Part shown: piece after piece, positions 4,024 through 19,013 of the stretch
How the letters are laid out: each line of letters begins with the position of its first letter
Position numbering within the stretch: the first letter of the stretch is position 1
DNA from: a virus
DNA: 20,488 nt
Strand: one strand, 5' to 3'
Virus record (IMG/VR): IMGVR_UViG_3300009537_000220
Span: 1-20,488 of that record
Program-made: the position numbers and the translations under genes
The notes under the pieces: model-generated
Told to the model about the DNA's origin: nothing
Databases searched by the model: none
The model's input: the letters and a program-made list of their open reading frames with translations, nothing else

Positions 4024-5955
4024 TTACAATTGCAATGCCGCGTCCCTCAAACGGTCATTCACATGTCCTGCAAGCTCGTCGGCTATTTTCGCCACATCGA
4101 GCTTACTGCTTATGTTATTGAAGTAATTTTTAAAATCCATATTCAGCGTGATGATCTTGCTGCCGCCATGCCCACCCACACTCAATCCGTCAGCATCACC
4201 TTTTCCTTTGGGCGGCTTTATATCACCGTCCATATTATTGCCCTCGTTCTGACGAGCGTAAGCATCCGGGCTTAGTTCTTTTTTCTTCTTTTCCTCTTCC
4301 TTCTCTGCGCGGAAATCTGCAATACCTTTTTGCTTGTCACGCTTATAGGCATCCCCCACACCATCGAATAAATGAGTGCTTGCGGCTATTGTTCTCGCCG
4401 CCATGCTGATTGGGTTCAGCTTCAGAAATGCTTTTGCTGCACCCATCCAGTCCCCCTTTTGGATGGCTGCTATCACCTCGGCTATCGGAGAGAATACATC
4501 CTTAAACAGATTGCCGATATTGGTAAATATCTGCTTGATGCTTCCCCATAAACCGTAAAGGAAGCCCCTGAATCCTTCAAACTTTTTCCAGGCATAAATT
4601 ATCCTGCCCACTACAGCCGCGATGGCTAATACTATCCATACACCCGGAAATGAATAAGTAGCAATGTTTAGCTTCCATTGCATGAGTGTCTGCGCCCAGG
4701 TTACTTTGCGCAGCGTGTCCATGATCATAATGGTACTCGCTATGCCCGTAGCCATCGTAGCGAAGGTTTGAAAATATTGAGTGAAGCCTCCGAAGGTGGT
4801 GGCAAACCATGTTTCTATATCCGCCAGCCAACTTTTAATGCCTTCATTTGCCTGCTGCACTTCCGGCAGCTTTTCAAAATCAAGGTCCACGCTGCCCAGC
4901 CCTTTTATAAACTCATTGCCCGCATCTTCACCTGCCGCCTTGAATATCGTTTTCATTACCTGCTGTCTTGCCTGTGTGCTCGCGCCTTCCATTTGCCTGG
5001 CTATAAGCTGCACGGCTTCAAAGCTGCTCTTACCCACAAAGTCTTTAGGGGAAAGCTTTATGCCTTTCAATGCGGTGATCTGGCTTGAGTTCATCTCTTT
5101 GAGTGAAAGATTCGCCTCTTTGATACTATCCAAAGCCTTATCGCTGAAAACGCCGCTCTTGCCAGCCTGCACCATCAAGCTCATTGTTTCTGCTGCGCTC
5201 AATCCTGCCGCCCGCATTTGCGGACCGTACTCCCTCAATTGTTGCAGCATGTCGTCGTTTAGGTTCGCACCTTTTTTAAACCCCTTCTCAATGAGGTTGA
5301 AGGCATCATTAAACGAGATGCCCATTTGCTTGCTCACGGCATTAGCCGCTTGTGCTATCTCGCGGTCATCTTCATTAAACACCTTTCCAAGCCTATGCGC
5401 TCTGCGTGTCAGTTCCTCCAGTTCATCACCGGTTGCACTGCTGAATCTTTGAATATCTGTTTGCAAATCCTGAATGGCGGGGGCAAAATCAAGCATCTGT
5501 ACTACGCGGTCTGCAAGCTGCTGCATCTGATTAAATGCAGTGATAGTACCCTCCCAGCGCGAGGCTCTTACTTTAAACTTATCCAGGTCATCAGTAAGGT
5601 CTTTCATGTCCTTATCTGCGCCCTTCAGTGCCCCTCGCAGTTCTTCCAGTCCTTTCTTTGCCCTGTTCAGTTCGCGCACGGCTTTTGCCTGTACTGTGCC
5701 GGGTGCTGTTTTGGCGGATATTTTTTCAAGCTCAGCTACCTTTTTTTCGGTATCCTTTATCTGCTTGCTGAGGTCTTTGTAGTATTGCTTGGCTTTGCCC
5801 AGTGCATCTTTGGTGGCTTTCTCGCTCAGCTTCACGGCTCCGCTCATATCATCCACAGCATCCTTTCCGCCGGTGATCGCTTTGGTAATTGCTTTCATCG
5901 GGGCAGTGATCAGGTCCGCCAGCTTCAGTATCCATGTGGTTTGCGTATCTGCCAT
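4024..5955 (-). CDS. Tail tape measure protein
   Basis: A 643-residue protein, the longest in the window. Residues about 30-135 are coiled coil (SEKATKDALGKAKQYYKDLS, KDTEKKVAELEKISAK). Residues about 165-370 match the TP901-type tape-measure core: FSSATGDELEELTRRAHRLG, QAANAVSKQMGISFNDAFNL, GPQMRAAGLSAAETMSLMVQ, GKSGVFSDKALDSIKEA. Hydrophobic helices follow at about 395-455 (TMATGIASTIMIMDTLRKV, VWIVLAIAAVVGRIIYAW). The C-terminus is charged and ends in a β-like NMDFKNYFNN segment. It sets tail length and occupies the tube lumen. It is placed, as usual, directly after the chaperone. Its length would predict a short tail, of the order of 90-100 nm by the usual 1.5 Å per residue rule. Confidence 0.93.
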   Translation of the reverse strand: MADTQTTWILKLADLITAPMKAITKAITGGKDAVDDMSGAVKLSEKATKDALGKAKQYYKDLSKQIKDTEKKVAELEKISAKTAPGTVQAKAVRELNRAKKGLEELRGALKGADKDMKDLTDDLDKFKVRASRWEGTITAFNQMQQLADRVVQMLDFAPAIQDLQTDIQRFSSATGDELEELTRRAHRLGKVFNEDDREIAQAANAVSKQMGISFNDAFNLIEKGFKKGANLNDDMLQQLREYGPQMRAAGLSAAETMSLMVQAGKSGVFSDKALDSIKEANLSLKEMNSSQITALKGIKLSPKDFVGKSSFEAVQLIARQMEGASTQARQQVMKTIFKAAGEDAGNEFIKGLGSVDLDFEKLPEVQQANEGIKSWLADIETWFATTFGGFTQYFQTFATMATGIASTIMIMDTLRKVTWAQTLMQWKLNIATYSFPGVWIVLAIAAVVGRIIYAWKKFEGFRGFLYGLWGSIKQIFTNIGNLFKDVFSPIAEVIAAIQKGDWMGAAKAFLKLNPISMAARTIAASTHLFDGVGDAYKRDKQKGIADFRAEKEEEKKKKELSPDAYARQNEGNNMDGDIKPPKGKGDADGLSVGGHGGSKIITLNMDFKNYFNNISSKLDVAKIADELAGHVNDRLRDAALQL

Positions 5956-5972: not shown

Positions 5973-6128
5973 ATGTCGGTACTTTCCTTCATAGCTACAT
6001 TAATCATCGGCGCCTTCTTTATTTACTTTATGGCGCTCTGCGTGCTCTACGCCGTTGGAGGGATACTTCATTTTCTGCGCACGCTCTGGAAAGACTTTTG
6101 CAGTATTATTCTGTCTTTCCGTAGATAG
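5973..6128 (+). CDS. Putative small membrane protein opposing the tail operon
   Basis: A 51-codon ORF starting at the ATG at 5973. The protein is almost one long hydrophobic helix, or two short ones (VLSFIATLIIGAFFIYFMAL then CVLYAVGGILHFL), followed by a basic, aromatic tail ending SFRR. It fills the 150-nt space between the stop of the chaperone frameshift product (6106) and the tape measure start (5955), where the minus strand offers no gene that I can see. A promoter-like pair lies just upstream. It could be a moron, an exclusion or holin-like protein, or a chance ORF. A membrane product from the antisense strand of a tail operon is unusual. Confidence 0.42.
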   Translation: MSVLSFIATLIIGAFFIYFMALCVLYAVGGILHFLRTLWKDFCSIILSFRR

Positions 6129-6665
6129 CTTTTGCAAGCTCGTAAAGCACCTCCCGAAGGTTATTCTTCAGCACTTCACCCTCTACATACTGCACGTATT
6201 GATATTCCCCCACCAGCTTTGCCCACTCTTCATCGCTTAGTTTATCCGGGTCGCAGCCATAAGTCTTTCTTATCACTGCGTTCCATTTCTTTACCGCGCC
6301 GCCATCATCGTCCTCCGGGTCAAGATGCCTGGCGGCTAAAGCTTTTTTACGGAGGCGCGTTTTCTGGTCACGAGCCTTTCAAGCTGTTCCAGTAAGGCTG
6401 TATATACGCTGCCGTCGTTCTCCATCAAATCCATGTCGCCACCCAGCACACAATTAGCAATAAGCACTTTGTTCGCTTCCGCTACTTGTTTCTTTACACC
6501 ATACTCACCGATGGCATCCATAACACTCCTATTAGGTCTGCGGGCTATAAAGCTTGCCGTTTTGCCCTCTTCAAGTTCCACGTCTATCTGCTGGAGCTCT
6601 CCGTACTTCAGTTTCCAGTCCTGAATCATTTCAGGAGTAATGTCGCTATAACTTCTTGGTTGCAT
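6106..6665 (-). CDS. Tail assembly chaperone, -1 frameshift product (gpGT-type)
   Basis: Slipping by -1 on the heptamer at 6348-6342 joins the 108 upstream codons to a second frame of 78 codons (ALAARHLDPE ... KAIYGKTE) ending at TAA 6108-6106, so the fusion is 186 residues. The second frame has no start codon in a sensible place, is free of stops, and encodes an ordinary, charged, helical protein (SDEEWAKLVGEYQYVQYVEG), which argues that it is translated only by frameshifting. In lambda the equivalent G and GT proteins are both needed for tail assembly, with the T part contacting the tube protein. Two frames and a fitting signal are directly visible; the in vivo use is inferred. Confidence 0.8.
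6298..6348 (-). promoter_or_regulatory. Programmed -1 ribosomal frameshift signal
   Basis: On the minus strand, A AAA AAG (6348-6342) is in the right register of the zero frame (GTA AAA AAG CTT TAG). Five nucleotides later GCCGCCA (6336-6330) can pair with TGGCGGC (6304-6298). The stem can extend with CATC/GATG across a small bulge. The heptamer is the most slippery one in bacteria (the dnaX type), and the spacing to the stem-loop is the usual 5-9 nt. The zero-frame stop codon sits two codons after the heptamer. Confidence 0.85.
6336..6665 (-). CDS. Tail assembly chaperone, short form (gpG-type)
   Basis: A 109-residue product that ends at TAG 6338-6336 if no frameshift occurs. It contains a helical N-terminus (SDITPEMIQDWKLKYGEL), a strand pair (IDVELEEGKTASFIARRPNR), and helical segments with VLIANCVLGGDMDLMENDG. 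This is the usual pattern of the small tail chaperones that coat the tape measure before tube assembly. It lies between tube and tape measure, the standard place. Its last sense codons overlap a slippery heptamer, which makes a longer second product likely (see the next entry). Confidence 0.8.
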   Translation of the reverse strand: MQPRSYSDITPEMIQDWKLKYGELQQIDVELEEGKTASFIARRPNRSVMDAIGEYGVKKQVAEANKVLIANCVLGGDMDLMENDGSVYTALLEQLERLVTRKRASVKKL

Positions 6666-6711: not shown

Positions 6712-7146
6712 CTATACGCCCCACTCAATATGGCTTACCAGTCCTTCAAACTTGAAGGCGATGGTTCCGTCTCCCTGCTTTACGGGGATGCCTCTGTTTT
6801 TGAATTCGAAATTCCTGATCCTGTCCTTGCTGAGCACTCCGCCCCCCTGCTCATACTCGCACGTGATGTCAAACGGTGGAATATCCTGAAAGCGACTTCC
6901 CGGGGGCAATGATTTTTGAATCGCGTCCATTTCTTCCTTATACAGCGTAATTGCGCATTTTGCCTCATAATTTCCCTCGCCTCTACCAACAGGATATTTC
7001 CCGCCTCCATACGCGTTTTCTTTGGACACACTGTCATCATACTCTATTTCCGTAAAACCTTCCACCTCGCGTCCCATTATCTCCACAGTCAGGGCGTTCC
7101 ATCCCTGCATCCTTCCGAACTTATTAATGATTGTTGCCTTTGGCAT
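6712..7146 (-). CDS. Tail tube protein
   Basis: A 144-residue β-rich protein directly downstream of the sheath. Segments such as ALTVEIMGREVEGFTEIEY, GEGNYEAKCAITLYKEEMDA, IPPFDITCEYEQ and IRNFEFKNRGIPVKQGDG resemble the Mu gpM/P2 FII-like tube fold (a sandwich with one helix). It forms the inner tube of the contractile tail; the sheath-tube-chaperone-tape order supports this strongly. The start is the ATG at 7146, 36 nt after the sheath stop, behind an A-rich tandem repeat. Confidence 0.8.
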   Translation of the reverse strand: MPKATIINKFGRMQGWNALTVEIMGREVEGFTEIEYDDSVSKENAYGGGKYPVGRGEGNYEAKCAITLYKEEMDAIQKSLPPGSRFQDIPPFDITCEYEQGGGVLSKDRIRNFEFKNRGIPVKQGDGTIAFKFEGLVSHIEWGV

Positions 7147-7160
7147 ATTAACGATTTTAG

Positions 7161-7184
7161 ATTTTGAATTTTGAATTTTGAATT
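7161..7184. repeat. Short AT-rich tandem repeat (7-bp unit, about 3.4 copies)
   Basis: Plus strand ATTTTGA repeats at 7161-7167, 7168-7174 and 7175-7181, with part of a fourth copy. On the coding strand this gives an A-rich leader upstream of the tail tube ATG and runs into the sheath stop codon. A-rich, unstructured leaders favour translation in Bacteroidota, where Shine-Dalgarno pairing is weak; that role is inference. Confidence 0.75.
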
Positions 7185-8412
7185 ACAGTTTGTTGGTCAG
7201 TCCTAAGTCCACGCTGAATTCATGCACGATACCATCTGCAACCACCGATGCTTTTACAACCAGCGGAGTATTTTCGCTTGGATTTTGCTTCGGGTCTATG
7301 TAGCAGCTTTTGCCGCTGATCTCGTCTGCTGCTTCCATGCGCTCCAATGCTTTCAGCACAAGTCCTTCCCAGCGTGATGTGGTGGTGGTGCGGATATATC
7401 CGGTTGCAGAATCTTTCTTCACTTTGCCTTTCACTTCCGGCAGCAGCGTTTCGCGGATCAGCCTTGCAGCTTTATTCCACACACGGGTATTTTCCATGTA
7501 AGCATAATCGCTTGCAGCCTCTACGCAGGCAGGCGAGCTATTGAGGAAGATCCCGCCATACCCTTCATAATGCCCGGCAAACACATAGCCTTTTGCAGTA
7601 AGCGATTTCTTTTCCGCCTGGCTCAAAGCAGTTTCCTTTGTTCCATCGCTCAGGGTTGCAGATTGCCACAGGCTTCCTTCGCTCAGTGGATAATCTTTAT
7701 TCCCTTTTTTAATGGAAGGCTTATTGCTGATGTTCACACTGCCCCAATTTTCATTTACCTGACGGGCAGCAGCCATACCGAGCACGGCTCCTACATCCGC
7801 ATATTTTGCATAAGCGGCATCCAGCGCAGCTATGTAAGGGTCTTGCGCAATGCTCACCATCACGTTGGGAGCTACCTTAGTGCGCAGGTCATTATACGTT
7901 GCAACAGTGATGGCAACAGCCTCGCCATTGCCTTGCAGCAACACGAAGTCTATTAAACGATGTTCTGCGGCAAAATCATCAATCACCGCCTGAATGTCTT
8001 CCACCATTGCAGCCAGCGATTGAACCGTGGTTGCAGTGCCGCCTATCGCTATGCCTTTTACCTTTGGCATGTTGCGAATTGCCTCCTGAAATGCGGCAAG
8101 CTCCATAACCTGCTTTGGAGTCAGGTTATCGGCAACAGGTACGAGATGAAGGACTGCATCCGGTGCCAGTCTGAAAAATTCGCTGATAGCATGATGCACC
8201 AGATAACCATTGTTTGCATCGAAAGCGGCATTAAAACCTGCATCCTCTGCATTCTTCAGCGTGAACAGCTCAATAGGTTCATTATGCGAAGCTCCCGCCG
8301 GAAGATCGGCAGCAGATATGGCATACGCCAGAGCCATTACATTATCATCGGTAGGATTGGTGCGACCAAGACCGCCATTCAGTTTATTAATTTTTACTCC
8401 TTCGAAACTCAT
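7183..8412 (-). CDS. Contractile tail sheath protein (DUF2586-like)
   Basis: A 409-residue protein. The N-terminus (FEGVKINKLNGGLGRTNP) is followed by an α/β region with repeated strand-helix units (LHLVPVADNLTPKQVMEL, KVKGIAIGGTATTVQSLAAM, LIDFVLLQGNGEAVAITVAT, PNVMVSIAQDPYIAALDA), then GYGGIFLNSSPACVEAASDY and RVWNKAARLIRETLLPEV, and a C-terminal strand domain ending in a β-strand (ADGIVHEFSVDLGL). This is the layout of Bacteroidota sheath proteins of the DUF2586 type. It polymerises around the tube and contracts on infection. It lies directly upstream of the tube gene, as in all myoviruses. Confidence 0.82.
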   Translation of the reverse strand: MSFEGVKINKLNGGLGRTNPTDDNVMALAYAISAADLPAGASHNEPIELFTLKNAEDAGFNAAFDANNGYLVHHAISEFFRLAPDAVLHLVPVADNLTPKQVMELAAFQEAIRNMPKVKGIAIGGTATTVQSLAAMVEDIQAVIDDFAAEHRLIDFVLLQGNGEAVAITVATYNDLRTKVAPNVMVSIAQDPYIAALDAAYAKYADVGAVLGMAAARQVNENWGSVNISNKPSIKKGNKDYPLSEGSLWQSATLSDGTKETALSQAEKKSLTAKGYVFAGHYEGYGGIFLNSSPACVEAASDYAYMENTRVWNKAARLIRETLLPEVKGKVKKDSATGYIRTTTTSRWEGLVLKALERMEAADEISGKSCYIDPKQNPSENTPLVVKASVVADGIVHEFSVDLGLTNKL

Positions 8413-15017: not shown

Positions 15018-15466
15018 GGTACTTAACCATAGATGATCTTTCCACAGACATTTACATGCGCTTTATCAATGAAAGTGCGGAAAAGCCCCCCGGGGAGGAG
15101 GGTGAAGAAGAACAAGAGCCGCCAGTCCTGGCTGAACTTGAAAACAGGGCAATTGCCTTAGTTTCCACGTACCTCACCGGACGCTATGATGTGGCAAAAA
15201 TCTTCGATGATGAGGAGCCTGTGAGGAACGAACTGATCGTGGACATTCTTTCTCGCATTATTGTTTACAGGCTTATCAAGCGCAACGCCGCGCGAAAAGT
15301 TCCTACCGATGCAAAGGAGGACTACGACGCCGCTATTAAACAGCTTGAGAGCATTAATTCCGGCAGGATAAAACTTGAAGACCTCCCCAAACCCACCGAT
15401 GAAAGCGGCAATCAGATCGGTAAAAACACTTATGGTAACAATTCTAACCCGGACTTTTATATATGA
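15014..15466 (+). CDS. gp36-like head-completion protein (DUF1320)
   Basis: A 150-residue protein with the DUF1320/Mu gp36 pattern: N-terminal MRYLTIDDLSTDIYMRFINE, an acidic insert (EEGEEEQEPP), helix ELENRAIALVSTYLTGRYDV, helix LIVDILSRIIVYRLIKR, and a C-terminal DYDAAIKQLESINSGRIKLE. Members are thought to join the portal to the neck or tail. Here the gene lies between terminase and portal and overlaps both by 4 nt, a place that differs from Mu, where gp36 lies after the capsid gene. Confidence 0.75.
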   Translation: MRYLTIDDLSTDIYMRFINESAEKPPGEEGEEEQEPPVLAELENRAIALVSTYLTGRYDVAKIFDDEEPVRNELIVDILSRIIVYRLIKRNAARKVPTDAKEDYDAAIKQLESINSGRIKLEDLPKPTDESGNQIGKNTYGNNSNPDFYI

Positions 15467-16722
15467 GCATGTTTAAAAAGCTATACGCTAAGGCAGAAAC
15501 CTACTTCCTGAAAAATGCAGATTTCAGAAAGGTATTTGTAGAAGCTGCATTGCGGAGAGGTGATGACAATAACCGGATAAGCGGCAGGCTTCAGTACAGC
15601 GCAAAGAATCTCCGATCGCAAACGCTGAAAGTGTGGAAAAATGCTGTAGCCGCAGCCAGTGACCCTGAGAATCCTGATTATTCTCTGTTAGCAGAATTGT
15701 ACTACAACCTGCTGCTGGATAATCACCTTTCATCAGTGATTGATACGCTCATATTATTCGTCCAGCGTTCCGCATTCAAGATGGTCAGCGATTCGGGAGA
15801 GGAAAATAAGGATGTGAGCAAGTTATTTGAGCGACCCTGGTTCTTTGACCTGATGCGGAAATATCTTTTCTCGAAATTTCAGGGAAGGACGCTCCTGGAA
15901 ATTTATGACCTTAATGAGGACGGTGAATTAATGGGTGTCGAAGAAATACCGCAAACACACTTCAACCCGTTAAAAGGAATTATCATAGAAAAGCCCGGCG
16001 ATACAAAGGGCTGGAACTACAAAGAAGGTGCATTTGCCGATCAGTATGTGCAGATCGGTAAGGATTATGACCTCGGCATGTTGGAAATGCTTGCGCCCAT
16101 TATTCTTGCCAAAAAGCTGGCAATGGGCTCCTATCAGGATTATATCGAAAAGTACGGTGTGCCGCCACTGTTCATCACCACTGACCGCGAAGATAAGGGA
16201 AGGTTGGATGAACTTTTCGAAGCTGCATCCAATTTCAAGAGCAATCAGTTCATGATCGGTCGCGGACAGGAGAAATTTGAGATTGGCAAAGACATGGGCG
16301 GTGGCGGAACAGCGCCATTTGCAACGCTCATCAACATCGTGAACGATGAGATAAGTAAGAAGATTCTTGGCGGTGCTGGTATCACCGATGAGAAAGCTTT
16401 TGTAGGCTCTGCGGAAATTCAGTTCCGGCTTACGAAAGACCGTTACGAATCACTCAAACTTTCGTTTAAATACTTCTTCAACAGTGAGATCAGACCAAAA
16501 CTGATAAAACTCTCTCCTATATATGCGCCATTGGCAAACCATTCTTTTGAGTGGGACAATACCGAGAGCCTGAACCAGAAGGAGATCATTGAGGCAATAT
16601 CCAAGCTGGGGAACGTGTTTGAATTTGATGCGGAAGAGGTAGCGACAATATTAGGGCTTCCGATCATTGGCACTAAAACTTTTGCTCCTGTCTCCGGAGG
16701 TGATACCGGAAAAAAACAGTAG
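15463..16722 (+). CDS. Portal protein (Mu gp29-like, DUF935)
   Basis: A 419-residue portal subunit. Typical parts are AELYYNLLLDNHLSSVIDTL near residue 80, a wing region with FQGRTLLEIYDLNEDGEL, IILAKKLAMGSYQDYIEKYG followed by VPPLFI, and the GAGITDEKAFVGSAEIQF loop before the C-terminal helical crown. The dodecameric ring is the gate for DNA entry and the base for terminase and tail. The frame is intact and the length is on the low side of the family. It is followed by 35 nt with no gene before the gpF start. Confidence 0.85.
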   Translation: MSMFKKLYAKAETYFLKNADFRKVFVEAALRRGDDNNRISGRLQYSAKNLRSQTLKVWKNAVAAASDPENPDYSLLAELYYNLLLDNHLSSVIDTLILFVQRSAFKMVSDSGEENKDVSKLFERPWFFDLMRKYLFSKFQGRTLLEIYDLNEDGELMGVEEIPQTHFNPLKGIIIEKPGDTKGWNYKEGAFADQYVQIGKDYDLGMLEMLAPIILAKKLAMGSYQDYIEKYGVPPLFITTDREDKGRLDELFEAASNFKSNQFMIGRGQEKFEIGKDMGGGGTAPFATLINIVNDEISKKILGGAGITDEKAFVGSAEIQFRLTKDRYESLKLSFKYFFNSEIRPKLIKLSPIYAPLANHSFEWDNTESLNQKEIIEAISKLGNVFEFDAEEVATILGLPIIGTKTFAPVSGGDTGKKQ

Positions 16723-16757
16723 GGGTTGAGGCACGAAGCTTCAAACCATCAGCCCTT

Positions 16758-17753
16758 TTGTTTAAACGAATAGAAGCATCTTATCAACACGACCATGCGT
16801 GCGGACACGCCGCGCATGTGCGAGCCGTTGATCTGCCGGATAACTGGCAGCAGGAGTTCCTCCGCATTGCGCAGGAAATGCACGATGAAAAATACGGCAA
16901 GGCAGTTATTCCCGAATTGACCAATAAAACCTATGACGCGTTAAATGGAGGACATCTTTCAGGGAGAAATATAAAGTTCGGCGATGAGGCAGGCGCCGAT
17001 CCTGCGGTTCTTAACATGCAAAGAAACCTGTTCAGATTCTCCGGAGCGAAATCATTTGCAATTCGTGAGGAACTGAATCATCTGCTGCATAAAGACGGCA
17101 AGAAAAGACCGTGGGAAGACTTTAAAACCGAAGCCCTGAAGATTAACGAAAAGTATAACGTCAATCATTTGCAGGCAGAATATCAAACCGCGCACGCTGC
17201 CGGACAACATGCCCGTAACTGGGAGAAATATCAGTCGCAAAAAAAGCTGTTCCCAAATCTTAAATACAGGACCGTTGGCGATGCAAGAGTGCGTGATGAA
17301 CATGCGAAGCTGGAAGGTATCATAGCTCCTATAGACAGCGATTTTTGGAAGAAATATTACCCGCCTAATGGATGGCGGTGTTTCCCTCCGGAAACACTAA
17401 TACTTACCGAAAAAGGATGGAAACAAATTAAGAACATCAAACAAAGAGACTGGCTACCTGGCGGGAGCGGAGAGATGAAGTTTGTGGAAGCCGTTCATGT
17501 AAATCCGTTCCGCGGAAATCTTATCACTATCAATGATGCTGTTTCTTGCACCCCAAACCACAGATTCCTTACTGCTAAAGGATGGATTGAGGCGGAGCAG
17601 ATTGAAGCCGGAGATATAATCATACAGGTCGGTAAAGTCGGCTTTTTTTATAAAGTTCTCCATGCAGTACACAATACTGTAGCCCTCGTCCAGTATGTAT
17701 TGATGGCGGTCAAAAGAAGGTTTTCGCCTGCTGCTTTGCAGGTCAATGATTAG
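16758..17753 (+). CDS. gpF head-morphogenesis protein, N-half, fused to an N-intein
   Basis: Residues 1-207 are the Mu gpF/SPP1 gp7-like head protein, with helices (DNWQQEFLRIAQEMHDEKYG), GDEAGADPAVLNMQ, and the conserved block YRTVGDARVRDEHAKLEG, IIAPIDSDFWKKYYPPNGWR. At residue 208 (codon 17379) the protein turns into an intein: Cys1, CFPPETLILTEKGWKQIKNI (block A), NPFRGNLITIND (N2), SCTPNHRFLTAKGWIEAEQI (block B, with TPNH), then GDIIIQVGK. About 36 further residues are the reverse side of the antisense endonuclease gene and end at TAG 17753. The start is TTG at 16758; no ATG or GTG lies in frame in the gap after the portal stop. Full gpF can form only if this half is spliced to the second half. 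Confidence 0.85.
   Translation: MFKRIEASYQHDHACGHAAHVRAVDLPDNWQQEFLRIAQEMHDEKYGKAVIPELTNKTYDALNGGHLSGRNIKFGDEAGADPAVLNMQRNLFRFSGAKSFAIREELNHLLHKDGKKRPWEDFKTEALKINEKYNVNHLQAEYQTAHAAGQHARNWEKYQSQKKLFPNLKYRTVGDARVRDEHAKLEGIIAPIDSDFWKKYYPPNGWRCFPPETLILTEKGWKQIKNIKQRDWLPGGSGEMKFVEAVHVNPFRGNLITINDAVSCTPNHRFLTAKGWIEAEQIEAGDIIIQVGKVGFFYKVLHAVHNTVALVQYVLMAVKRRFSPAALQVND
17379..17641 (+). other. N-terminal intein segment (Hint fold, IntN)
   Basis: Codons 17379-17641 encode about 88 residues with class 1 intein features: Cys1, the N1 block ending IKNIK, the N2 strand FRGNLITI, and block B with Thr-x-x-His (TPNH) that activates the first peptide bond. The segment ends at GDIIIQVGK, where continuous inteins pass into a linker or endonuclease domain. 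The insertion point is the last residues of the gpF motif PPNGWR-CRC. Confidence 0.9.
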
Positions 17754-18332
17754 ATGATGATCCGGCAGATAAAAATTGACAAAATAATGTCCAACTATGT
17801 ATCGGAACTCAAAACGGATTTTTAGAGCGTTTAAAAACTCAATAACAATTTGCTCGTTAGCGCTCAAAGGTGATTTTAAAAAAGCATTTCTTTCAGGATG
17901 CTTTCGCCTGGCAATTACTGAATTTTCTTTGGCTTTATTCATGACCCCCGGACGATGGAAGGAAGAAGTTTTTTCCAGCTTCTTTGCTATTGCTCTTACC
18001 ATCTTACTGTTCTCTTTTGTTTTCCCTTGTCTTATGTGCAAACCTTTTAAAGCCAACTCATGATTTGTTTTTGCCAATATAGCTGCTGCCTGCTTTCTGC
18101 GCTTCTTATTATTCACCCATTGGGTTTTTACAGCTTCGCTGCCTTTGCGGGGCTGCTGCTGGCAGTAGGCTATTATTTTTGCCACCGTTCGATTATTAAT
18201 CCGCCAAAGCTTGCAAAGCTTACGATAGCTGAGCAACTCGGTAAAATATCTTCGCTCAAGGGCATCAGCAATATCGCATCCTTCCAAAAATTCAATTCTC
18301 GCTATCACTTCCTGCGAAAGACCTTTTTTCAT
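17454..18332 (-). CDS. Predicted Vsr/DUF559-like homing endonuclease, antisense within the split intein
   Basis: A 292-residue protein from ATG 18332 (MKKGLSQEVIARIEFLEG); the frame is open to 18593, but that part only mirrors gpF. Residues about 33-56 form a helix-turn-helix (SYRKLCKLWRINNRTVAKII). Residues 95-155 are basic with NUMOD3-like repeats (GKTKENSKMVRAIAKKL, NKAKENSVIARRKHPE). Residues 158-240 match the DUF559/Vsr-type nuclease: ANEQIVIEFLNALKIRFEFR, HYFVNFYLPDHHLIIDLQ, FDRHQYILDEGYSIVYC. Glu159, Asp197 and Asp208 hold acidic positions, but the usual Asp of 'YIVDFY' is Asn186 and 'E-x-D-G' is D-L-Q-S, so activity is uncertain. The C-terminal 50 residues are antisense to IntN. This is the position between blocks B and F where inteins normally carry their endonuclease, but inverted. 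Confidence 0.75.
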   Translation of the reverse strand: MKKGLSQEVIARIEFLEGCDIADALERRYFTELLSYRKLCKLWRINNRTVAKIIAYCQQQPRKGSEAVKTQWVNNKKRRKQAAAILAKTNHELALKGLHIRQGKTKENSKMVRAIAKKLEKTSSFHRPGVMNKAKENSVIARRKHPERNAFLKSPLSANEQIVIEFLNALKIRFEFRYIVGHYFVNFYLPDHHLIIDLQSSRRKPSFDRHQYILDEGYSIVYCMENFIKKADFTDLYDYISGFNLLRLNPSFSSKESVVWGARNSIIDSDKISAERIYMNGFHKLHLSAPAR

Positions 18333-18344
18333 ACGCGCTATGTT

Positions 18345-18446
18345 TTGGTAAAAAACAAAAATACGAAACCATACAGCGGCAGTGTTTATAATCTTTCCGT
18401 GTGGGAAGATGAAAGCTACATTACCAGGACAGGCATTGCGCATAAT
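18345..18446 (+). other. C-terminal intein segment (IntC)
   Basis: Codons 18345-18446 encode about 34 residues: a β-strand region VKNKNTKPYSGSVYNLSV (block F) with acidic WEDESYIT, then TRTGIAHN (block G) ending His-Asn, followed by Cys+1 at 18447. Size and motifs match IntC segments of naturally split inteins (about 35 residues in DnaE inteins). Confidence 0.88.
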
Positions 18447-19013
18447 TGCCGCTGCTTTGTTACTCAGACGGCGGAGCTTGCCAATCACGATCTGCCGGAT
18501 GATGTACCTGAAGTGAAACCGGAATTCCGCCAAAATGTGGGCATCACCGAAGAAGTGTTTCCTGAAAAGAAGATAGACGGTGTAAAGCCGCATATATATT
18601 TCGCCATAGCTGCAAAAGCAGGCGTAAAAGTGCAGCAGGAAATAGACAATCTGCTAGCAAAAGAAACGGCAAAAAAAGCAGTAGAATGGGGCAAAGAGAA
18701 TCTTGTGCAGGCAAAAGTAAAACTGACCCACCTAAGCCTTCCGAAAGAAATATCACTATCTGTCCGCAACCTAAAAACGATAACGGGGAAACCACATAAA
18801 AACAGAGCGGAGAGAAACGACCTGCTTTATAACATTGAGGGTGATTTTAAAGACGCTGAATTCATTAAAGGTCCCATACCTGAAGGTAAAGGACGATCTC
18901 AGTATAAGAACTGGTGGTACTTTAAATCAAAGCAAGGCGATTTCTATTACAATGTAGTCGAATCTGCTGATGGAAGGATTGAAATACATGCTATAACTGA
19001 TAGCGTAAAATAG
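18345..19013 (+). CDS. C-intein fused to gpF C-half and a BECR-type nuclease domain
   Basis: IntC (34 residues) is followed by CRCFVTQTAELANHDLPDDV, which completes the gpF motif after splicing (NGWR + CRC). Then comes a gpF-like tail (EEVFPEKKIDGVKPHIYFAI) and a helical linker. The last 85 residues or so (VRNLKTITGKPHKNRAERND, LLYNIEGDFKDAEFIKGPIP, WWYFKSKQGDFYYNVVESAD, GRIEIHAITDSVK) resemble phage BECR (barnase-EndoU-colicin-RelE) domains often fused to gpF, with a conserved His in PHKNR. The start is uncertain: TTG 18345 gives a textbook IntC; ATG 18060 gives a hydrophobic extension that mirrors the antisense gene. The spliced gpF would have about 395 residues. Confidence 0.72.
   Translation: MVKNKNTKPYSGSVYNLSVWEDESYITRTGIAHNCRCFVTQTAELANHDLPDDVPEVKPEFRQNVGITEEVFPEKKIDGVKPHIYFAIAAKAGVKVQQEIDNLLAKETAKKAVEWGKENLVQAKVKLTHLSLPKEISLSVRNLKTITGKPHKNRAERNDLLYNIEGDFKDAEFIKGPIPEGKGRSQYKNWWYFKSKQGDFYYNVVESADGRIEIHAITDSVK

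Follow-up and report, generated by a model that had tools for sequence, protein, structure and literature searches.

A conserved reading-frame slip appears to give a Bacteroidota Mu-like phage a short and a long tail-assembly helper

Introduction

The programmed -1 frameshift of lambda G/GT and its relatives in dsDNA tailed phages were reportedly described by Xu, Hendrix and Duda in 2004. The heptamer of lambda G/GT is G GGA AAG. In signals of the dnaX type, a Shine-Dalgarno-like stimulator lies about 10 nt upstream, and a single host tRNA-Lys(UUU) reads both AAA and AAG. According to the accessible part of one review, many G are made per GT in lambda, and the tape measure is bound by G and the tail tube protein by T (PMC5009743). 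A value of 7 % measured for an HK97-like chaperone cluster is given in the accessible text of the GeneTack work (PMC3711429). The Burkholderia Mu-like phage KS10 was reported, in the accessible portion of one paper, to have no detectable site (PMC2628397).

Here we describe a tail chaperone gene in a 20,488-base virus record (IMGVR_UViG_3300009537_000220, positions 1 to 20,488), the whole of which is referred to as the window. Sequence comparison indicates that the locus is very probably a -1 frameshift cassette of the lambda G/GT type. It resembles lambda G/GT in its gene place, two overlapping frames, -1 step and slippery heptamer late in the first frame, and one clade among its relatives has G GGA AAG itself, at -43. 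It differs in that the usual heptamer here is A AAA AAG, placed one codon ahead of the stop, and in that there is no sequence match to any Pfam chaperone family. Phage Mu gp41/42 shares the Mu-like genome type and the gene place, but its shift is reported as -2 in the accessible parts of two papers (PMC5009743, PMC2628397), whereas the step is -1 throughout here. E. coli dnaX has the same heptamer, A AAA AAG, with a stem-loop soon after it; unlike dnaX, the window has no upstream Shine-Dalgarno-like stimulator, and the frameshift product, which is short in dnaX, is long here, as in lambda G/GT.

Methods

Homologous loci were collected by profile scans with a two-member chaperone alignment and with sheath alignments, and frame and heptamer were measured by script. 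The zero-frame protein alone found no relative among viral contigs, and an alignment of five distant chaperone members held no block conserved enough for a scan. Of the 104 sheath loci (80 viral and 24 genomic), 14 yielded no pair that could be used, were of insufficient length or were left out, and these weigh neither for nor against the frame step. Five viral sheath loci (L055, L064, L078, L083 and L093) were dropped as too short downstream, and five others (L076, L080, L086, L092 and L097) gave no pair. Among the 24 genome loci, L127 and four duplicates were left out, and L121 gave no pair under the size limit; its first frame, followed by hand, ends TTA AAA AAC TGA. The chaperone picks at L084 and L098 were rejected, as both pairs lay several kb downstream of the sheath, and the L098 protein looks unrelated to the chaperone. 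Removal of these two picks left 91 distinct chaperone pairs. The sheath-derived pairs, in which the frame was free to vary, numbered 78; L002-L005 and L007-L024 were left out of that count because their second frame had been chosen as -1 by construction. L098 is still inside the representative count, the start-codon count and the shuffle test given below.

A formal frameshift combination was defined as an in-register XXXYYYZ at most 60 nt from the stop together with a -1 extension of at least 50 codons, and was sought in stop-to-stop ORFs of at least 60 codons. For the portal gene, the protein alone as scan query found no relative, but the portal alignment did. Four loci in which the portal ran off the end were dropped and identical pre-junction sequences were merged, which gave 77 distinct junctions, the window included; some of these are close relatives of each other, with no further clustering.

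The chaperone cassette in the window

The gene set of the window is Mu-like (Portal_Mu, Phage_Mu_F, virion morphogenesis and DUF2586 sheath proteins), and megablast of the window against phages returned no match and hence no close relative. The tail module lies on the minus strand in the order sheath (DUF2586, 7183..8412; PF10758, E 5.6e-43), tube (6712..7146; PHROG 4579 tail protein, E 3.7e-20), 109-codon ORF, 78-codon second frame and tape measure (4024..5955; PF10145, E 3.9e-17, and PHROG tape measure families). The chaperone gene is thus located between the tail tube/major tail gene and the tape measure gene, a place shared with lambda G/GT. The 109-codon zero-frame ORF (6336..6665, minus strand) was assigned as a G-like tail assembly chaperone on its position, its fold and a match to PHROG 19076, a family whose function is not named there (E 2.3e-16).

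On the minus strand, the chaperone ORF ends GTA AAA AAG CTT TAG. The slippery site is an A6 run, and its heptamer A AAA AAG (6342..6348) is in register 10 nt ahead of the TAG stop at 6336..6338. An earlier note on this DNA had reported this heptamer, giving no strand, with the stop two codons on; a single sense codon, CTT, does lie between heptamer and TAG. The -1 frame is already open 40 nt ahead of the zero-frame stop, and its T-like extension (6106..6342, minus strand), which carries a conserved helical domain, runs for 78 codons from GCT (6342) to TAA (6108-6106). It contains no ATG, in agreement with the earlier description of a second frame lacking its own start, and the predicted frameshift product has the 186 residues stated there (108+78).

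Downstream of the heptamer, a stem-loop occupies 6289..6341 on the minus strand, as a 7-bp GCCGCCA/TGGCGGC stem or a slightly longer alternative fold. When the 56 nt after the heptamer were folded freely, the minimum free energy structure was a longer fold related to this stem (-21.7 kcal/mol, z -2.58), which 2 of 200 shuffled sequences equalled, and the 7-bp stem became the minimum (-18.8) once five spacer bases were removed. The GC stem that had been placed 5 nt after the heptamer is therefore present there, but it competes with a slightly more stable longer fold. No Shine-Dalgarno-like stimulator was found 5-18 nt upstream of the heptamer in the window; among the relatives, Shine-Dalgarno-like 4-mers occurred in 11 of 45 loci versus 22 of 270 control stretches. 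The view that each dnaX-like element is present thus stands for the heptamer and the stem, but not for the upstream stimulator, and the frameshift product is the long one. The formal frameshift combination was present in 7 of the 122 ORFs of the window, so the sequence of this one locus is weak and unexceptional evidence by itself and conservation must bear the argument.

Conservation of the frame step and slippery site

Of the 78 distinct chaperone pairs collected through the sheath, which lie beside DUF2586 sheath genes in Bacteroidota Mu-like phages, all 78 show the -1 step, and so do all 91 distinct pairs. An in-register XXXYYYZ lies inside the overlap at 80 of the 91 loci: 45 have A AAA AAG exactly 10 nt ahead of the stop, and 35 more have another in-register heptamer. 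Synonymous codon shuffling within genes predicted 30.3 loci with a heptamer compared to 81 observed in the 92-locus test (L098 included), and in the same 92 loci XXXYYYZ was found in register at 81 versus 19 and 13 in the other two registers. The heptamer was retained in 63 of 74 representatives below 60 % identity, and in 86 of 92 loci ATG was absent where the second frame starts (L098 included in both counts). Since 80 of the 91 homologous loci keep an in-register heptamer where about 30 would be expected, the cassette is far more than a product of chance. These results answer the conservation check that the earlier note had proposed, and they strongly support its proposal that the tail chaperone gene carries a -1 frameshift cassette. 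A degraded second frame beside an intact first frame, which it had named as contrary evidence, was sought and seen in none of the 91 pairs.

The pattern NNA AAA AAG NNN stop, followed by a -1 ORF, is common to Winogradskyella phage Peternella_1, FPSV-S1 and the gut phage scaffold MT835775. Other clades have G GGA AAG at -43, A AAA AAC at -10, A AAA AAA at -22, or A AAT TTT / T TTT TTG at -31/-28. As judged from the sequences compared, the slippery site shifts place between clades and the frame step stays fixed.

Eleven of the 91 loci (L003, L035, L039, L053, L057, L058, L062, L081, L094, L102 and L114) have no canonical heptamer in the overlap and still keep the -1 ORF. Three of them, L039, L053 and L058, have NTA AAG GAA GTN TAR in common, and the chaperone of L035 ends GTA AAG CTA TAG with no XXXYYYZ; single-codon slippage on A AAG may perhaps operate at these four loci with a conserved -1 ORF. 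The gut phages L003 (scaffold MT835523, 2923-3549), L129 and L130 likewise carry the -1 chaperone ORF with no canonical heptamer. Variants of these phages that differ elsewhere share an identical stretch of about 67 nt surrounding the stop, and therefore some other signal may act there. At two loci, L005 (4462-4986) and L089 (5791-6330), the zero-frame chaperone is 175-180 aa long and looks like an internal domain duplication.

Selection, RNA structure and protein fold

Because the window lacks a close relative, selection was measured on the relatives. Beyond the zero-frame stop, the second frame gave dN/dS values of 0.06-0.52 in all listed pairs for which dS was finite, and third-position changes were in excess; these substitution patterns indicate that purifying selection acts on the second frame in the relatives. 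A 32-member alignment of the second frame has a conserved core around KxNAxIR...IDPxxLSDxEWAxL, which was modelled as two helices (pLDDT 84.4). No convincing PHROG was found for the members of this alignment, one of which matched at E 0.0083, and when the structure of the second-frame domain was compared to viral models, no match fell below E 0.001.

RNA structure is enriched after the heptamer. Across the 45 loci with A AAA AAG, the following 55 nt had a mean z of -1.88, compared to -0.15 for control stretches 100 nt downstream and -0.40 for those upstream, and z fell below -1.5 in 30 of 45 loci versus 5 of 45 and 7 of 45 in the respective controls. The Wilcoxon p values against the two controls, 1.6e-6 and 8.5e-6, are a guide only because the 45 loci are related. 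Covariation was good in one stem family, with four pairs changed on both sides and 3 of 500 shuffles scoring as high; it was weak in a second stem family, with one pair changed on both sides and 289 of 500 shuffles as high.

Comparison of the AlphaFold2 model of the zero-frame protein (pLDDT 93.5) with the PDB placed 3fgx, YqbN, HK97 gp13 and a PICI-like element protein ahead of everything else. The best PDB rows were 3fgx (Z 9.1) and YqbN 3klu (Z 6.4); the HK97 chaperone 2ob9 (Z 5.6) and 5ir0 (Z 5.0) followed, and the next row had 3.4 (VIA-align). Foldseek gave a probability of 0.96 against 2ob9. Sequence identity to the zero-frame protein is 17-20 % for 2ob9 and 11 % for 3klu, and the cassette proteins had no match to a chaperone model in Pfam or NCBIfam. 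The modelled fold thus resembles that of HK97 gp13 and YqbN, at moderate Z values that, being under 8, are not proof alone.

Origin of the two predicted chaperone forms

With an A6 run as slippery site in a virus fragment of 20,488 bases, it could be supposed that an error in sequencing or assembly added or removed bases in the homopolymer and so split one gene into two frames. This is already refuted by the homologues, which have the same frame step in 91 distinct loci drawn from isolates, prophages and metagenomes, Peternella_1 and FPSV-S1 among them, and its probability is practically negligible. It is also very unlikely that the chaperone fusion arises from transcriptional slippage on the A run instead of ribosomal slippage. 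Longer A runs do occur at the site in a few relatives (L099, L100, L104 and L109), but the run is A6 in the window as well as in the 45-locus group, which is short for RNA polymerase slippage, and the downstream stem, enriched in these loci, is not needed by a slipping polymerase. For such slippage, runs of 9 are spoken of in the accessible part of an NAR review (PMC5009743).

Re-initiation after the zero-frame stop could in principle make the second frame, or this frame could be a dead remnant, and the heptamer-less gut phages L003, L129 and L130, with their retained -1 ORF and invariant stretch around the stop, would suit either idea. Both are at odds with the lack of an ATG near the second-frame start in nearly all loci and with a heptamer that is held in register, and the remnant is further opposed by the purifying selection on the second frame; we regard the two together as extremely improbable.

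In the lambda G/GT-type reading that we prefer, most ribosomes would end at the TAG and yield the 109-residue chaperone (G). A minority would move back by one base at A AAA AAG, aided by the stem-loop 5 nt downstream of the heptamer, and continue into the 186-residue form (GT), which ends in a helical domain. On the lambda model, the tape measure protein would be coated by G, and the T part would serve to bring in tube subunits. Computation established the architecture, its conservation, the selection that acts on the second frame of relatives, the enriched structure and the fold resemblance; we infer the steps themselves, from slippage on the ribosome and its efficiency to the roles of the two chaperone forms. 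The nearest relative by sheath (62 %) is carried by Chitinophaga sp. SYP-B3965, which has tRNA-Lys(CUU) besides tRNA-Lys(UUU). Because tRNA-Lys(CUU) is present, AAG may be less slippery in SYP-B3965 than in E. coli.

The deposited records of Peternella_1 and FPSV-S1 contain no feature of its own for the second frame, which, with the lack of a convincing PHROG, fits the earlier expectation that standard gene calling would miss it. In the accessible Winoviridae literature a frameshift was found mentioned only for spanins, and a term search of the available text of the Peternella paper returned neither frameshift nor chaperone. As to a possible link between hankyphage assembly defects and a missing heptamer, no hankyphage record was among the matches, and the accessible part of the hankyphage paper (PMC12135933) does not mention these genes. 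In all likelihood, then, this is a known kind of signal that is very well conserved, unannotated in the Peternella_1 and FPSV-S1 records and, as far as our search found, not previously reported in the clade. A clade of Bacteroidota phages and prophages would gain a hidden, probably essential tail gene product, and a moving slippery site with a fixed frame step shows the evolution of such a signal.

A second candidate -1 transition from portal to MuF

The portal gene came up in the window-wide control for the formal frameshift combination. It forms the zero frame of a second putative cassette (Portal_Mu, 15463..16722, plus strand; PF06074, E 1.7e-48) and ends GGA AAA AAA CAG TAG (16708-16722), an A7 run followed by a stem. 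The in-register heptamer A AAA AAA (16710..16716, plus strand) lies one codon ahead of the portal stop TAG (16720-16722). The MuF ORF (SPP1 gp7-like, 16704..17753, plus strand; PF04233, E 6e-11) is open in -1 across this stop and extends 343 codons past it, with no ATG near its start.

Among the 77 distinct junctions, portal and MuF are in -1 at 65, fused in-frame at 6, in +1 at 3 and separate at 3. The MuF domain was confirmed in all 8 of the -1 ORFs scanned, and both portal and MuF were found in the fused L178. At the 65 -1 loci, the final 60 nt of the portal have A10 as their longest A run in 49 cases and A11 in 4. Elsewhere in these portals (75.1 kb) there are 23 runs of 7-8, and no run reaches nine. 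In 51 of the 65, the -1 frame lacks ATG, GTG and TTG as far as 60 nt beyond the portal stop. All 65 have an in-register heptamer at the portal end, a count that alone says little because 43.9 would be expected. Structure was not enriched after A runs of at least nine (mean z -0.15, control -0.22, n=55); the 10 short-run loci had a mean z of -0.97 against a control of -0.34, and the window had -1.97.

The fixed A10 run, the lack of downstream structure and the varying distance to the stop suggest that polymerase slippage probably joins portal to MuF in most relatives. Ribosomal slippage is possible in the window, which has A AAA AAA with a stem right after it. Taken as a whole, it is likely that Bacteroidota Mu-like phages have two programmed -1 transitions, one in the chaperone and one leading to both plain portal and a portal-MuF fusion, the latter by polymerase slippage on A10 in most relatives and perhaps on the ribosome in short-run members. 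In-frame portal-MuF fusions are known in Microbacterium phages, according to the accessible part of one report (PMC7302621). No earlier report of a frameshifted or slipped portal to MuF was found in the accessible literature, a search that most subscription papers lie outside, and the apparent portal-MuF slip of this phage looks new. If true, it would provide a portal ring with a set share of MuF domain, so that the copy number of a head protein is fixed, and a natural comparison of polymerase and ribosomal slippage on the same gene pair.

Past the portal frame step, the MuF proteins of L184, L188, L204 and L212 end in a CdiA_C-like C-terminal domain, as in MuF-type polymorphic proteins. In the window, an intein-like insertion was observed in MuF at a GWR/CRC motif (16758-19013, plus strand; about 17379-18449), with its two halves in separate ORFs. 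Its N-terminal splicing region matched TIGR01445 weakly, below the cut-off, and its C-terminal splicing region matched TIGR01443 above the cut-off (20.1 versus 15.6 bits). On the opposite strand, a 379-aa ORF (17454-18593, minus strand) lies inside the intein region; it has no Pfam, NCBIfam or PDB match, and a fractured intein with its homing endonuclease encoded antisense is one tentative explanation.
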